Below, piece after piece: positions 1-12,422 of a DNA stretch of 64,000 nucleotides. Location: contig CALUZB010000008.1 of NCBI GenBank assembly GCA_944325195.1, positions 1 to 64,000 on the forward strand, in the 5' to 3' direction. The first letter of the stretch is position 1, and each line of letters opens with the position of its first letter. The notes below the pieces were generated by a model. The model was not told the DNA's origin, ran no database searches, and was given only the letters and a program-made list of their open reading frames with translations. This DNA comes from an uncultured Desulfovibrionaceae bacterium (GTDB taxonomy: Bacteria; Desulfobacterota; Desulfovibrionia; Desulfovibrionales; Desulfovibrionaceae). A program made the position numbers and the translations under genes.

Positions 1-166
1 CTGTGCGCAACTCCGAGCCGTTCCACATTTTTGCCCGGTGCGCGCTGCCCTTCATCCATTCCTGGAGTGTGGGAGGCGGAATGAATTGGGATTGCCAGAG
101 CTGCTCCGCCAAATCCTGGTAAGAGTCCGCCGTGAATTTTGCGCCATCAATCGTTCTGTATTTCAT
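1..166 (-). CDS. small hypothetical protein, C-terminus cut by window edge
   Basis: An ATG at 166 (minus strand) follows an AGGAGGA ribosome site four bases upstream and opens a frame that stays open to the window edge, giving about 55 residues starting MKYRTIDGAKFTADSYQDL. The start lies 11 bases after the stop of the amidoligase gene on the same strand, so the two are probably co-transcribed. From family knowledge, amidoligase genes in phage-like and integrative elements are often followed by a small protein of this kind and then by a gamma-glutamylcyclotransferase. That the next gene off the edge is such an enzyme is only inferred. No function can be assigned. Confidence 0.7.
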   Translation of the reverse strand, partial: MKYRTIDGAKFTADSYQDLAEQLWQSQFIPPPTLQEWMKGSAHRAKMWNGSELRT

Positions 167-176
167 ATTCTCCTCC

Positions 177-1130
177 TTAAGCCAGGGCCATTACAGCGGC
201 CCGGTTACGGTAAAACTTAGCAATCTTGCTGTCAATGCCCGCCCAGAGCGAGTCGTTGCTGCCCGCAGCGGTCTGAGCCTCAGCGAGCTGATAGTGGGTG
301 CTCCCGCCCCGGCGGGTGGAGCGGATGTTAATGCCTGCCTGACGGATTCTGCTGATGGCAGCCCGCAGGCTGTGCGGCTGCACCCCCAGAGTTTCGGCCA
401 GGCTTGCAGCGTTGGTTAAACCGTTGCGCAGGTGCTCGATAATGCGGCGGTGGCTTGCAAGCAGGCTCACGGCAGGAGTAGGGACGGGGGCGGAAGCATG
501 GGCAACTCTCACGCTCTCAGCGATAAATTCTTCGAGCAGCTTTACCCAGTTCAGTGTCCGGTCGGCGTCCACGATGCCGTTATGCTGCCGGAACTCAATG
601 GTGCCTTGGCGCAGCAGGCTTTGCAGGTTAACCTTGAAATATCTGCCGGGCTGGGCATGGGCCAGGCCGCTGACAGTGCTGGCGTTTCTGAAATCGCTGC
701 TTTCAGGCAGGCCACGGACGCTGCGGCAGAATCTGTTTTCACTTCCTCGACGGCTGGGCGGCATAAAGGCGTCAATCTCTGCTTCCCATCTGGCGTAGCG
801 GCTTATAATGCAGCGCAGCTCTTCCACTCCCAGGTCGGCGGCGTCAAAATGCACATGCAGCCCGCAGCTTCTGTCGGCATGCGCTCCAGCGGTCTTCAGG
901 GCGTTTATAACGGTGTCCGCCTCTTCCCTCCCGCTTTCGCCTTCCAGTATGGGGGAGACGACCTCAAACCCGTTGTTTACGGAGCTGTCCGGCACAATCT
1001 TCCAGGCCAGGGTTGTGCGGTGGGTATAGCCTGGGGTGATTACCTCAATCCCTACCGCTCTTAGGGCTGCTGCGGCCTTGCTCTGGGTTATTCCGGTGAT
1101 TTCCAGCTCGATTCCAAATTTGCGACTCAT
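177..1130 (-). CDS. amidoligase-family protein with C-terminal winged-helix domain
   Basis: A 317-residue protein of the Amidoligase_2 type (COOH-NH2 ligase fold), expected to form amide bonds between amino or peptide groups using ATP; the substrate is unknown. Family marks are GIELE at residues 6-10, GLHVHFD near 90-96 and TIEFRQHNG near 177-185, followed by the usual NWVKLLEEF helix. Residues about 222-283 form a separate helix-turn-helix or winged-helix segment (SLAETLGVQPHSLRAAISRI) of a kind seen in phage and plasmid proteins, so this looks like a fusion of ligase and nucleic-acid-binding parts. The ATG at 1130 has a GGAGGA site close upstream. Members of this family sit mostly in mobile elements, and neither neighbour here is housekeeping. 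The family call is firm; the biological role is not known. Confidence 0.8.
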   Translation of the reverse strand: MSRKFGIELEITGITQSKAAAALRAVGIEVITPGYTHRTTLAWKIVPDSSVNNGFEVVSPILEGESGREEADTVINALKTAGAHADRSCGLHVHFDAADLGVEELRCIISRYARWEAEIDAFMPPSRRGSENRFCRSVRGLPESSDFRNASTVSGLAHAQPGRYFKVNLQSLLRQGTIEFRQHNGIVDADRTLNWVKLLEEFIAESVRVAHASAPVPTPAVSLLASHRRIIEHLRNGLTNAASLAETLGVQPHSLRAAISRIRQAGINIRSTRRGGSTHYQLAEAQTAAGSNDSLWAGIDSKIAKFYRNRAAVMALA

Positions 1131-1309
1131 GGCGTCCTCCCTGATTTAAGTTGTTGATATTGTTCGCCTTTTGTTGTGAGTGTGTTCGCTCCGTTCCCGG
1201 AAACAGTCAAGGAAAATACTGCACAAATCGTAAAATATTTAGCTTGCTGTCTTTACCACACAGAGCTAAGTGACAGTCGACGCAAACAGCAAAACCGGAG
1301 GGAAATCAC

Positions 1310-1825
1310 ATGCTCCATACTGAAAATAAAGAATGGGGATTTTACGGAACCGCCTGCAGGCAGGGCGGAGAGGAATTTGCGCAAAGCGCCTGGGAAGCTG
1401 CCTTTGAACATATAACAAATGTTATGGGCTGGGATGAAGAAATGACCCTGCTCTTCCTGGACAGCCCACGCGGCCGCCACTACGCGGACGAGCTGGAAGG
1501 GCAGGGGCATCGGCTGGACAGGCTGACCCGCTATGCCTGCCTTGAGGAGGAATGCCGCGCCTTTTTTAAGGAAATCAATTCGGCGGGCTACCGGGTATGG
1601 TGCAAGGTTCACGGTTGCAATCCAACGGAAAAAGTCCTGATGGCAACGGGGTTATCCAGCGGCGCTCTGGCGGCGGCAGTGAGAAATCTGACCGGTCTGG
1701 ATTACTCCGCAAGCCGGATTGAACGTGCAATTCACACAGCGGGCCCCCTGGCTCAGGCCCTGGCCCTGCTCTTGGCCGAAATTCCCGAAGAAATGCGCTC
1801 CCCCTATATAGGCCGGGATTGTTGA
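1310..1825 (+). CDS. orphan accessory protein, 171 aa
   Basis: A 171-residue soluble acidic protein with no signal peptide or membrane segment. The ATG at 1310 follows a good GGAGG site (spacing about 7). The N-terminus (WGFYGTACRQGGEEFAQSAW) and a FLDSPRGRHYADEL segment near residues 52-65 resemble small proteins carried by integrative elements of Desulfovibrio relatives; this is recalled resemblance, not a search result. It is transcribed away from the amidoligase gene and is closed by a perfect 10-bp hairpin terminator just downstream. No function is recognised. Codon use looks like that of its neighbours. Confidence 0.65.
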   Translation: MLHTENKEWGFYGTACRQGGEEFAQSAWEAAFEHITNVMGWDEEMTLLFLDSPRGRHYADELEGQGHRLDRLTRYACLEEECRAFFKEINSAGYRVWCKVHGCNPTEKVLMATGLSSGALAAAVRNLTGLDYSASRIERAIHTAGPLAQALALLLAEIPEEMRSPYIGRDC

Positions 1826-1847
1826 AAATCCGACAACCCCATAAACA

Positions 1848-1871
1848 AAAAGGAGGGCAATCCCTCCTTTT
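1848..1871 (+). terminator. intrinsic terminator after the 171-aa gene
   Basis: A perfect 10-bp inverted repeat (AAAAGGAGGG, loop CAAT, CCCTCCTTTT) starts 23 bases after the stop codon at 1825. The A-rich and T-rich flanks make it look bidirectional. Confidence 0.85.
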
Positions 1872-2127
1872 GCTCGTTGCAAGATCCTCATCGGAAACAG
1901 GGCTTATCCCCCTGATAAATTTCAAATATTCCTGCCTCCCATTCTCATTTCGCGTTACGGCTTACAATATGTCCGGCTCTGGTTTGGCGGCGCATTTTCG
2001 GGAAAGTTTACGGTAGAGGTTGGGCATCTCGTTTGAGATGGAACGGCAGGAAACCTCCTTTTTATTGTCCATTTATATTTTGTAATTTTATTGTCGTATA
2101 TGTAATTAGTTCCTACAACGAGTTATC
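1872..2127. other. AT-richer gap, no gene seen
   Basis: Between the terminator and the metallophosphoesterase remnant the sequence becomes AT-rich (about 2040-2125). No open frame with a ribosome site, tRNA or attachment-site duplication was recognised. This may be where the accessory segment meets the old chromosomal sequence. Confidence 0.4.
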
Positions 2128-2514
2128 ATGCTGCAGGCGCGTCAGTTATCGTGCCGCGCTTCACTTGTTGGAGTGCCCGATCCCAGAGCGGAACGGTTTG
2201 ACGAGCTTCCGCCAGACCTGGAAAAGGCCTTGGAAGGTTCCCCGGATAGGGTGCGGATATTACTGGCCCACCAGCCGGGTACAGCCCCTGACAACCAAGG
2301 GGTGGACATTCAGCTCTCAGGACATACGCATGGCGGCGTTATGTTCTTCCTGAAACAAGCCGTGGCCTCTTTCAATAACGGTTTTGTGCAAGGCTTGTAC
2401 AAACTTGACGACAAGATACTGTATGTCAGCCCCGGCACAGGATTATGGAACGGGTTTTCATGCAGAATCGGCGTTCCTGCGGAAATTACACAGTTCATTC
2501 TCCACGCCGGATAA
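2128..2514 (+). pseudogene. C-terminal remnant of a calcineurin-like metallophosphoesterase
   Basis: The reading frame encodes 128 residues matching only the last part of a YkuE/YaeI-type metallophosphoesterase: the RILLAHQP motif (near residue 43) and the LSGHTHGG metal-binding motif (near residue 63), then the usual VSPGTGLWNGFSCRIG tail. The family normally has about 270-370 residues and an N-terminal half with the DxH, GDxxD and GNHE metal ligands; none of that is present upstream. The ATG at 2128 has no ribosome site. I read this as a truncated, inactive gene whose 5' part was lost, perhaps when the accessory DNA to the left arrived. The true homologous part probably begins near 2165. 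Confidence 0.75.
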
Positions 2515-10646: not shown

Positions 10647-12422
10647 ATGAGCAATCAGCCTTTCGCCCCCCTGCCAAGCCCGGAAGAAATGAGTCGTTGG
10701 GACGCCGCCGCGGTTGAAGAAGCAGGAGTTCCAGCCGCACTGTTGATGGAGAACGCCGGGAAAGCGGCCCTGGACGCACTGTTAAAAGAGTTCGGCAATT
10801 TGCACGGCAAAAGAATTCTGATATTCATGGGTAAAGGCAATAATGGTGGCGACGGGTCCGTGCTGGCCCGCCTGGCCCTAAACGCCGGGGCAGAGGTGCT
10901 GGTCTGTCATCTGCACCCTCTGCCTGAAGTGAACCTGGAAGACGTCCGCGCTCCCTATGCCGCACCGTCCGGGATCGGAGCAAATGCACTGCACATTGCG
11001 CTTGCCCGCGCGGCCGGAGTTGAGTTTTTCCAACTGGCCCGGGCTTTTTCCCCTTTCCCTGAACCGTACTGGGAACACCCCGATATTGTGGTGGACGCCC
11101 TGCTCGGCACCGGGCTGAAAGGCGCTTTGCGCGACGAGCACGCGGCCCTGGTCAAACGCATCAACCTGTTCAGAAATCTGCGGCCTGCCAACTGCGCCGG
11201 CGGCTGCTCCTGCAACACGGCTGCATCCGACGCTCAATGGCCCGGTCTGGCCTGGCCTGTATCGGAAACGAGTGACACATCTCCGTCCCGTCCCGCCACG
11301 GAACCGTTTGTTTTGTCCCTGGATATCCCCTCCGGACTGAACGGCGTTTCCGGCAGGCCCCTGCCCTCGGCCGTGGCCGCCCACGCCACCATTACCTTTG
11401 AAGCGCCCAAACCGGGATTGCTGGCCCCTGAGGCCCGCCCCTATTTGGGCAAACTGCTGGTTGCGCCGGTAGGCATTCCCAAAGCGATCAAACAGCGCTA
11501 TCCCGTCGGGCTGGCCCTGCTTATGCCCGATTGCGTAGCCGTTACCCCCAATCCATATACCTTCCAGCATAAAAATATGGCGGGAAAAGTGCTGATTGTG
11601 GGCGGCTCCACCGGCATGGCCGGAGCGCCCTACCTGGCTGCCCTGGGCGCCTTCCGGGCTGGAGCCGGACGGGTGGCTGTGGCCTGTCCAGCCGGATTGG
11701 AAAATCAGATCAGGGCGGCTCTGCCCGACCTGCTCACCATTCCCCTCGGCAACGGCGGGGAATGGACGGCGGAAGCAGCTGCCGAGCTGACCCCTTTACT
11801 GAAAAACTGGAACAGTGTGGTGCTCGGCCCCGGTTTGGGCACGGGAGAGGGAGCAACAGCGGTTGTGAGCGCCTGTCTCAATGCCTCGGAACGGGGCCCG
11901 GTATTGGCCGATGCCGACGCTCTGACCATTATTTCCCAAAACCGCGAGCTGTTCACCGCCCTGACCTGGCGGGATTTGCTCACCCCACACCCCGGTGAGG
12001 CTGCCCGTCTGCTCGGCACAAACACCGCCGCTGTGCTGGCCGACAGAACAGCATCCCTGAACTCGCTGCTCAGACTCACCCGGGCCACGGTGGTGTTTAA
12101 AGGCCCGACTACCTTAATCGGTCAGGCCGGGCGCATGGCTCTGTCGCCGTTCATCGAGCCCAACCTGGCCCTGGCCGGGAGCGGAGACGTGCTGGCCGGC
12201 ATTGGCGGAGCCTTTCTCGCCCTGGGCATTCCGGCTTTTGACGTGGCCTGCGCGGCAGTTTACCTGCACGGCACAGGCGGGCGCCTGTTGCATAAAACCT
12301 TTCCGTTCAGAGGGAACCTGCCGTCAGAAATTGCGGAAATAATCCCGGAAGCAAGAGTTGCCCTCTCCCGAGTAGCTGCGGACTGGGTGCCGGATTTATC
12401 TGAAAGCCCTGATGTCTTTTAG
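10647..12422 (+). CDS. nnr: bifunctional NAD(P)H-hydrate epimerase / dehydratase
   Basis: Repairs damaged NADHX and NADPHX. The N-terminal YjeF-type epimerase (about 1-285) interconverts the R and S hydrates, and the C-terminal kinase-like part (about 300-591) dehydrates the S form with ADP. Seen motifs are GKGNNGGDG (62-70), VVDALLGTGLKG (148-159) and SLDIPSGLNG (about 224) in the first part, and GGSTGMAGA, TPHPGEAARLLG and LAGSGDVLAGIGGA in the second. Residues about 178-220 form an extra Cys- and Pro-containing insertion just before SLDIPSGL that the family usually lacks. The ATG at 10647 has a weak AAGGAC site. Confidence 0.93.
   Translation: MSNQPFAPLPSPEEMSRWDAAAVEEAGVPAALLMENAGKAALDALLKEFGNLHGKRILIFMGKGNNGGDGSVLARLALNAGAEVLVCHLHPLPEVNLEDVRAPYAAPSGIGANALHIALARAAGVEFFQLARAFSPFPEPYWEHPDIVVDALLGTGLKGALRDEHAALVKRINLFRNLRPANCAGGCSCNTAASDAQWPGLAWPVSETSDTSPSRPATEPFVLSLDIPSGLNGVSGRPLPSAVAAHATITFEAPKPGLLAPEARPYLGKLLVAPVGIPKAIKQRYPVGLALLMPDCVAVTPNPYTFQHKNMAGKVLIVGGSTGMAGAPYLAALGAFRAGAGRVAVACPAGLENQIRAALPDLLTIPLGNGGEWTAEAAAELTPLLKNWNSVVLGPGLGTGEGATAVVSACLNASERGPVLADADALTIISQNRELFTALTWRDLLTPHPGEAARLLGTNTAAVLADRTASLNSLLRLTRATVVFKGPTTLIGQAGRMALSPFIEPNLALAGSGDVLAGIGGAFLALGIPAFDVACAAVYLHGTGGRLLHKTFPFRGNLPSEIAEIIPEARVALSRVAADWVPDLSESPDVF

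Follow-up and report, generated by a model that had tools for sequence, protein, structure and literature searches.

Near the first edge of the window (the whole 64,000-nucleotide stretch that we analysed), the sequence shows part of a cassette located in a prophage. It encodes an amidoligase of the glutamine synthetase (GS) fold with conserved motifs and a winged-helix insert, and a small acidic protein, predicted to be well folded, that is co-encoded with the enzyme across phages. Our best explanation, held tentatively and somewhat short of an even chance, is a prophage accessory (lysogenic-conversion) cassette, in which a two-subunit gamma-glutamyl-type ligase would alter the lysogen. In Table 1, we report the features of this region.

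Table 1. Features at the start of the window, with positions in the window, strand and type of evidence.
Feature	Position	Strand	Evidence
Small partner gene, codons 1-55 of 75 (rest on C26 and C23)	1-166	-	ORF, contig overlaps, profile searches
Right end of Mu-like transposable prophage (~43.9 kb)	1-2163	.	Contig overlap, split host gene, Mu matches
Amidoligase_2, 317 aa	177-1130	-	PF12224, structure model, GS fold
Conserved C-terminal tail helix, residues 293-317	180-254	-	Model, alignment
Inserted winged helix, DUF3489-like, residues 222-286	273-467	-	Model, DUF3489 matches of relatives
GS-like catalytic core, residues 1-212	495-1130	-	43-row alignment, motifs row by row
Divergent 171-aa gene	1310-1825	+	N-terminal part phrog_8020, C-terminal part like third gene
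6-bp target duplication CTTGTT at prophage right end	2164-2169	.	Joined flanks
3' part of interrupted host metallophosphoesterase gene	2170-2514	+	ORF, joined flanks

The amidoligase and its winged-helix insert

The enzyme matches the Pfam profile PF12224 (Amidoligase_2) over residues 2-202 with an E-value of 3.1e-37 (129.2 bits against a curated cut-off of 22), and the PHROG family phrog_2443, 'amidoligase enzyme', with an E-value of 7e-45. A PF12224 search of the whole genome of origin identifies this one copy. In an alignment of 43 sequences with 24 invariant columns, a row-by-row check finds the core motifs FGIELE, HVH and IEFRQH intact; they include the E-x-E, H-x-H and E-x-R motifs that we take to be the catalytic residues of Amidoligase_2. 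The structure model has a mean pLDDT of 92 and matches the glutamine synthetase fold in Foldseek (E 3.8e-4). Compared with solved structures, it gives Z 12.2 for 8pvg (VIA; 3.5 A over 199 residues) and Z 11.8 for YbdK, 1r8g (3.7 A over 208 residues). A sequence search of solved structures using the amidoligase and small-protein profiles gives no match below E 0.16. Phage amidoligases are widespread, with 79 records and 543 IMG/VR stretches related to our query.

An earlier note on this DNA had described an Amidoligase_2 domain with a helix-turn-helix (HTH) module fused to its C-terminus. Both parts are present, and the apparent DNA-binding domain is clear in the structure model (mean pLDDT 92) as a winged helix with helices at residues 225-235, 241-248 and 252-264 and strands at 269-274 and 277-282. 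The C-terminal position is what fails: the winged helix is an insert and not a C-terminal fusion, because model and alignment place a helical tail after it (residues 293-317) that is also found in relatives without the insert. The spacing between core and tail is 67-81 residues in the nine full-length family members of the window's type, 78-125 in six other rows, and 7-39 in the remaining rows of the 43. The tree does not show many independent gains of the insert: it requires two changes of the label, and the branch with all nine family members on one side has an SH-aLRT of 91 and is not starred.

On the window protein the winged helix stays below the Pfam cut-offs, with 21.1 bits for PaaX (cut-off 24.8), 20.6 for HTH_39 (21.3) and 18.6 for DUF3489 (29.5). 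Among the C-terminal parts of ten relatives tested, five match DUF3489 at 28.0-60.1 bits against the same cut-off of 29.5 (L069 at 60.1, L053 at 29.5, and L049, L142 and L009 at 28.0-29.0). The inserts of L073 and L135 give faint Pfam matches to other HTH families only, and the C-terminal parts of L109, L076 and L085 give no Pfam match to HTH families or DUF3489. The window's winged helix has 9 K/R versus 3 D/E residues, and K/R outnumber D/E in all nine full-length family members. The insert suggests an involvement of DNA in the mechanism, something that does not follow from the published cell-wall reading of phage amidoligases. Elsewhere among phage amidoligases, N-terminal extensions match HTH profiles in 4/10 cases, every one below cut-off. 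In L085, L076 and similar IMG/VR loci, we observe amidoligases that have a different insert of ~87-118 residues at the same site and are followed directly by a gamma-glutamylcyclotransferase (GGCT); the inserts of L085 and L076, the two tested, have no significant Pfam name.

The small partner protein

As the earlier note had described, a small co-directional gene follows the amidoligase; it starts 10 bases past the stop, on the same strand, and has 55 codons visible in the window. Two other contigs of the assembly, C23 and C26, both complete it to an identical 75-aa protein. At a threshold of E 1, neither Pfam nor PHROGs nor NCBIfam contains a match to this protein. We built a profile from 10 seeds with a threshold of E 0.05, and later rebuilt it from adjacent matches only. 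In the fetched loci, the 10-seed profile matches 66 stretches: 64 directly follow an amidoligase, and two are the continuation of the window's gene on C23 and C26; in the final round of the rebuilt profile, 67 of 69 matches are adjacent to an amidoligase.

Loci found through the amidoligase alone give the same association. The best 80 of the 543 IMG/VR relatives, one of them a duplicate, make a set of 79 that is biased toward the query's nearest relatives. In this best-of-543 set the small gene is present within 600 bases downstream in 43/79 loci (37/69 without near copies), and the profile has no match elsewhere in the 812 kb of these loci. The other 36 loci lack it, with less than 300 bases of downstream DNA in only three of them, therefore not every amidoligase needs the partner. 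Across 348 genomes of the class, the small-protein profile A5 has 30 matches in 22 genomes. For 26 of these, more than chance would give, one of the 31 amidoligase matches lies no more than 350 bases upstream; the remaining four comprise the two continuations on C23 and C26, one match beside an amidotransferase-like ORF (by eye), and one with internal stops. The genome with the match beside the amidotransferase (G044) has its own amidoligase followed by a transposase-like ORF (by eye), and it is one of the five of 31 amidoligase matches without the small protein, together with fragments in G206 and G181 and two cases without explanation (G287 and G100). For the window's own type, the small protein follows 9/9 full-length amidoligases.

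The family is mostly acidic, with a median pI of 4.9 over 59 rows and charges from -13 to +2. The model of a relative (L053) is a beta-beta-alpha-alpha-alpha-beta fold with a pLDDT of 91.5. It has no Foldseek match at E 0.001 and a best Z of 2.0 among 122 chains, a result that does not show a new fold. Among the relatives tested, L009 reaches E 0.00032 against an AAA lid model, which is under the cut-off of that model, and L003 matches phrog_38803 (E 0.0055). With tblastn, no phage record matches the L053 protein; the L128 protein has matches in 10 phage records and 2 from plasmids. By these searches, the 75-aa protein belongs to an acidic family for which we found no curated model and is a new element of the cassette. 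We found no published description of it or of the winged-helix insert in the portions of the literature available to us, and Iyer et al. 2009 may contain more. A partner that tracks such a large share of phage amidoligases offers a concrete handle for direct tests.

A Mu-like prophage and its cassette

The genome of 2.48 Mb is in 27 contigs, and position 1 of the window is also the first base of one of them, C8. When window positions 1-170 are searched against the genome as DNA, matches fall at four sites. One is C8 itself and a second, at 99%, is the end of C9; the other two are the opening 65 bases of contigs C23 and C26, each of which overlaps the start of C8 by exactly 65 bases. Of the six matches to PF00149 in the genome, one is the N-terminal half of a metallophosphoesterase on C26 at 41.9 kb. 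Fused at their shared CTTGTT, the C26 and C8 halves become one open frame, therefore the element consists of C26:1-41841 plus window 1-2163. C23 is ruled out as the neighbour of C8, since it is C26 that carries the rest of the interrupted host gene; the pairing of C9 with C23 is deduced solely by elimination. The prophage ends are TG...CA, the final CA being at 2162-2163, with CTTGTT on both sides. C26 matches Mu Gam (109.1 bits), the Mu portal (Portal_Mu, 273.8) and Phage_Mu_F (103.3), each over its cut-off, and also encodes a terminase and a baseplate protein; further tail genes are named by eye. At the expected place for MuA there is a 604-aa ORF, with 18.1 bits for HTH_22 (cut-off 29.6). 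These Mu matches, ends and target duplication bear out the mobile-element setting proposed in the earlier note, which had named housekeeping genes directly to the left as a finding that would speak against its reading; what lies on the left, on C26, is prophage genes. As an additional observation, C26 26227-27582 (L184 6227-7582) encodes a Mu F-like head protein with a PBECR2 nuclease-like domain (80 bits against 27.1).

The part of the cassette that was expected beyond the window is also on C26: the end of the small gene, a third gene, and a Dam methylase. The order is amidoligase, 75-aa protein, 95-aa protein, and then the convergent methylase, an accessory position that adjoins Dam and lies beyond the tail genes. 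The third gene overlaps the small gene stop to start, and encodes 91 aa on C23 and 95 aa on C26; it has no significant Pfam or PHROG match (the best is Sigma70_r4_2, E 0.22). The adenine methylase is full length on C26 (PF02086, 102.9 bits) and shorter, 204 aa, on C23. On the other side of the amidoligase, the divergent gene matches phrog_8020 over residues 1-72 (E 2e-18), and its C-terminal part has 42% identity over 60 aa to the 95-aa third protein of C26, a common domain that is HTH-like by eye. Relatives of its N-terminal part are near the amidoligase in L051, L054 and L069. Another genome, G025, has the same set in the same orientation (Dam, then the convergent third gene, small gene and amidoligase) at a prophage end; the portal and F proteins of that prophage are related to those of C26 (E 7e-47 and 4e-40), and it has a MuA- and MuB-like pair named by eye. 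Near another amidoligase cassette, L009 720-905 encodes a Com-like zinc ribbon beside Dam (PF10122, 55.8 bits against 22.9).

The end of C9 carries a second cassette in which the amidoligase match begins only at residue 187. C9 and the window are 98.8% identical over bases 1-255, which include the coding sequence of the tail helix, and 92% identical over bases 1131-1414 (284 bases, including an 18-base gap). In between, over the winged-helix segment (251-490), just 11-25 of the 30 bases agree in each bin. The visible part of the small gene is still open in this copy next to the truncated enzyme, and the intergenic DNA before the amidoligase is retained save for the 18-base gap and a few end bases. 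The sharp break near base 255 looks like an exchange of the enzyme between fixed flanks, as judged from a single pair, which is a thin basis. Remnants of this second prophage-end copy are G000:C9 (L030) 11500-12357 and G000:C23 (L031) 1-1240, and C23 also has ORFs resembling a relaxase, MobC, a topoisomerase and an ArdC-like protein (by eye).

A GGCT companion, which the earlier note had considered frequent for such amidoligases, is absent here. PF06094 has no match in the genome, and a profile built from Pfam-confirmed phage GGCTs finds none in C26:1-46000 or around the nine full-length members, for some of which the fetched stretches are 5.6-8.7 kb. Likewise, the glutamine amidotransferase (GAT) profile has no match in the window, in C26:1-46000, or around the other eight full-length members. 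The picture is different for the nearest relatives. With profiles built from Pfam-confirmed seeds, the 79 IMG/VR loci (best of 543) divide into 28 with the small gene only, 30 with GGCT only, 15 with both, 1 with GAT only, and 5 with none, so that GGCT is present in 45/79. All nine GGCT ORFs checked by Pfam match GGACT, one of them under the cut-off. Around the 37 small-bearing loci, GGCT is the commonest named family (8/135 flanking ORFs at E 1e-5, a set that omits the DNA from the enzyme to the small gene, in which two more GGCTs are encoded), and DNA methyltransferase families have 3-4 members each. In a second amidoligase group of the same family (~31% identity), an amidoligase, a small-like protein, a GATase and a GGCT are in a row in 4/5 fetched loci, with the Pfam check done on L055. 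The small-profile matches of this group are weak (E 5.5e-5 to 6.5e-4) and in the same place, and its 173-aa protein matches phrog_8677 via its C-terminal half (5.3e-13). Since the loci of relatives hold GGCT or GATase and those of the window's type do not, we regard the window cassette, on its sequence, as a reduced or distinct form of the amidoligase cassette.

Phage amidoligase cassettes with GGCT are the nearest known kind, and that enzyme is missing here. In the available portions of the literature, a peptidoglycan modification cassette is described for PSA-HP1, phiEco32, LUZ24 and tf, with a phage amidoligase, a glutamine amidotransferase listed alongside and, for PSA-HP1, a GGCT (PMC5498523); Amidoligase_2 is also named in the UFV-P2 phage (PMC3890496). 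The window cassette differs in that we find neither GGCT nor GAT, in its winged-helix insert and 75-aa partner, and in its place at the end of a temperate Mu-like prophage instead of the replication region of podoviruses. The accessible part of another study reports a phrog_2443 amidoligase in the Clostridium clostridioforme phi13 prophage, and lists GGCT in clostridioforme prophages (PMC11318856). Porphyromonas phage amidoligases share phrog_2443 and the small partner with the window; unlike it, they lack a long insert and carry an N-terminal extension that resembles an HTH only on inspection by eye.

Possible functions of the cassette

In the mechanism that we propose, the amidoligase would activate a carboxylate with ATP and join it to an amine. 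The linkage would be gamma-glutamyl-like, because relatives encode a GGCT, which would cleave bonds of this type. As a subunit, the small protein would dock on the ligase, perhaps on the C-terminal tail helix, the part of the enzyme that stays with the small gene in the C9 copy. Action on a nucleoprotein or self-regulation, both raised in the earlier note for the winged helix, is possible. Here the winged helix would tether or autoregulate the enzyme on DNA, and the product would change the lysogen, most simply in an envelope or peptide component, shutting out other phages. That the amidoligase and the small protein form a two-protein ligase unit is probable. For gamma-glutamyl-type chemistry, the chances seem evenly balanced; GGCT and GAT do not accompany the window's amidoligase type, therefore this chemistry is carried over from relatives. 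A role in superinfection exclusion is possible by analogy, and rather less than even. In the parts of the published accounts that we have, the substrate of phage amidoligases is given as hypothesis only: related cassettes of lytic phages (podoviruses) are hypothesised to alter peptidoglycan against superinfection (PMC5498523), and the cell-wall hypothesis is repeated for prophages (PMC11318856).

Given the genome position, the leading rival is that the winged helix brings the ligase to DNA, where an amide-linked group placed on phage DNA bases or on a DNA-bound protein would evade restriction. We consider it unlikely. Mom modifies the DNA of phage Mu against restriction, and com-mom is at the right end of the Mu genome. 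Cassettes of the window's kind, with a Dam methylase, likewise occupy the right end in two Mu-like prophages, close to a DNA-modifying enzyme, and the recurrence of flanking DNA methyltransferases together with this com-mom-like slot favours a DNA target, against our best explanation. The Com-like zinc ribbon adjoining Dam in L009/L029, the K/R excess of the nine winged helices, and the faint N-terminal HTH matches in some other lineages agree with it. The window enzyme matches Amidoligase_2 and not Mom, and Com is found only near L009/L029; the N-terminal HTH matches, moreover, are all below cut-offs. The GGCT partners of relatives point instead to small-molecule or peptide gamma-glutamyl chemistry, and relatives occupy other slots, beside terminase, repressors or a serine recombinase (by eye), and also between head and neck genes (annotated).

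In another reading, quite unlikely in our view, the enzyme is an ordinary phage amidoligase, the winged helix does no more than repress the operon that encodes it, and the small gene acts as a regulator. The largely retained intergenic stretch in the C9 copy and the HTH-like domain (by eye) of the third and divergent genes are what such autoregulation might leave, but sequence scans find no operator-like inverted repeat and no sigma-70-like promoter in front of the amidoligase gene, the third gene is without a significant family match, and the small protein model is not built like a recognisable HTH.

A bolder version of the DNA reading, which we hold to be very unlikely, makes the winged helix an exchangeable targeting domain, with ligase and partner attaching an amide-linked group, or the partner itself, to DNA or a DNA-bound protein. 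The two copies in the genome, alike in their flanks and diverged in the winged-helix segment, fit an exchange of the winged helix. We know of no phage that modifies DNA or DNA-bound proteins with amide links by GS-fold enzymes, and a DNA-targeting ligase, if true, would be a new phage modification mode for such enzymes.

A toxin-antitoxin or abortive unit, in which the small acidic protein would neutralise a toxic amidoligase, is distinctly improbable. Two close or overlapping genes, an acidic partner, neighbours that include a HigBA-like pair (L049, by eye) and a HicAB pair (annotated), and a C9 copy that keeps the visible part of the small gene open beside a truncated enzyme are the kind of evidence expected of such a unit, but the enzyme comes first in the gene order, and it must be tolerated alone in the 36/79 phage loci without the small gene.

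Least probable of all is that the small protein is the substrate of the ligase, as a peptide tag or acceptor like that of pupylation, where the GS-fold ligase PafA acts with Pup, a small protein that is not well folded: the tight linkage of a GS-fold ligase to a small protein is similar, but the small protein is predicted to be well folded (model of relative L053) and its C-terminal residue is not conserved (E 11, Q 2 and D 6 of 54 uncut rows). A Pup-like tag is rejected on Glu or Gln at the C-terminus in just 13/54 uncut rows (five further rows of the 59 are cut short). Separately, at L052 3396-4232, an ORF that looks TIR-like by eye runs convergently to an amidoligase relative.
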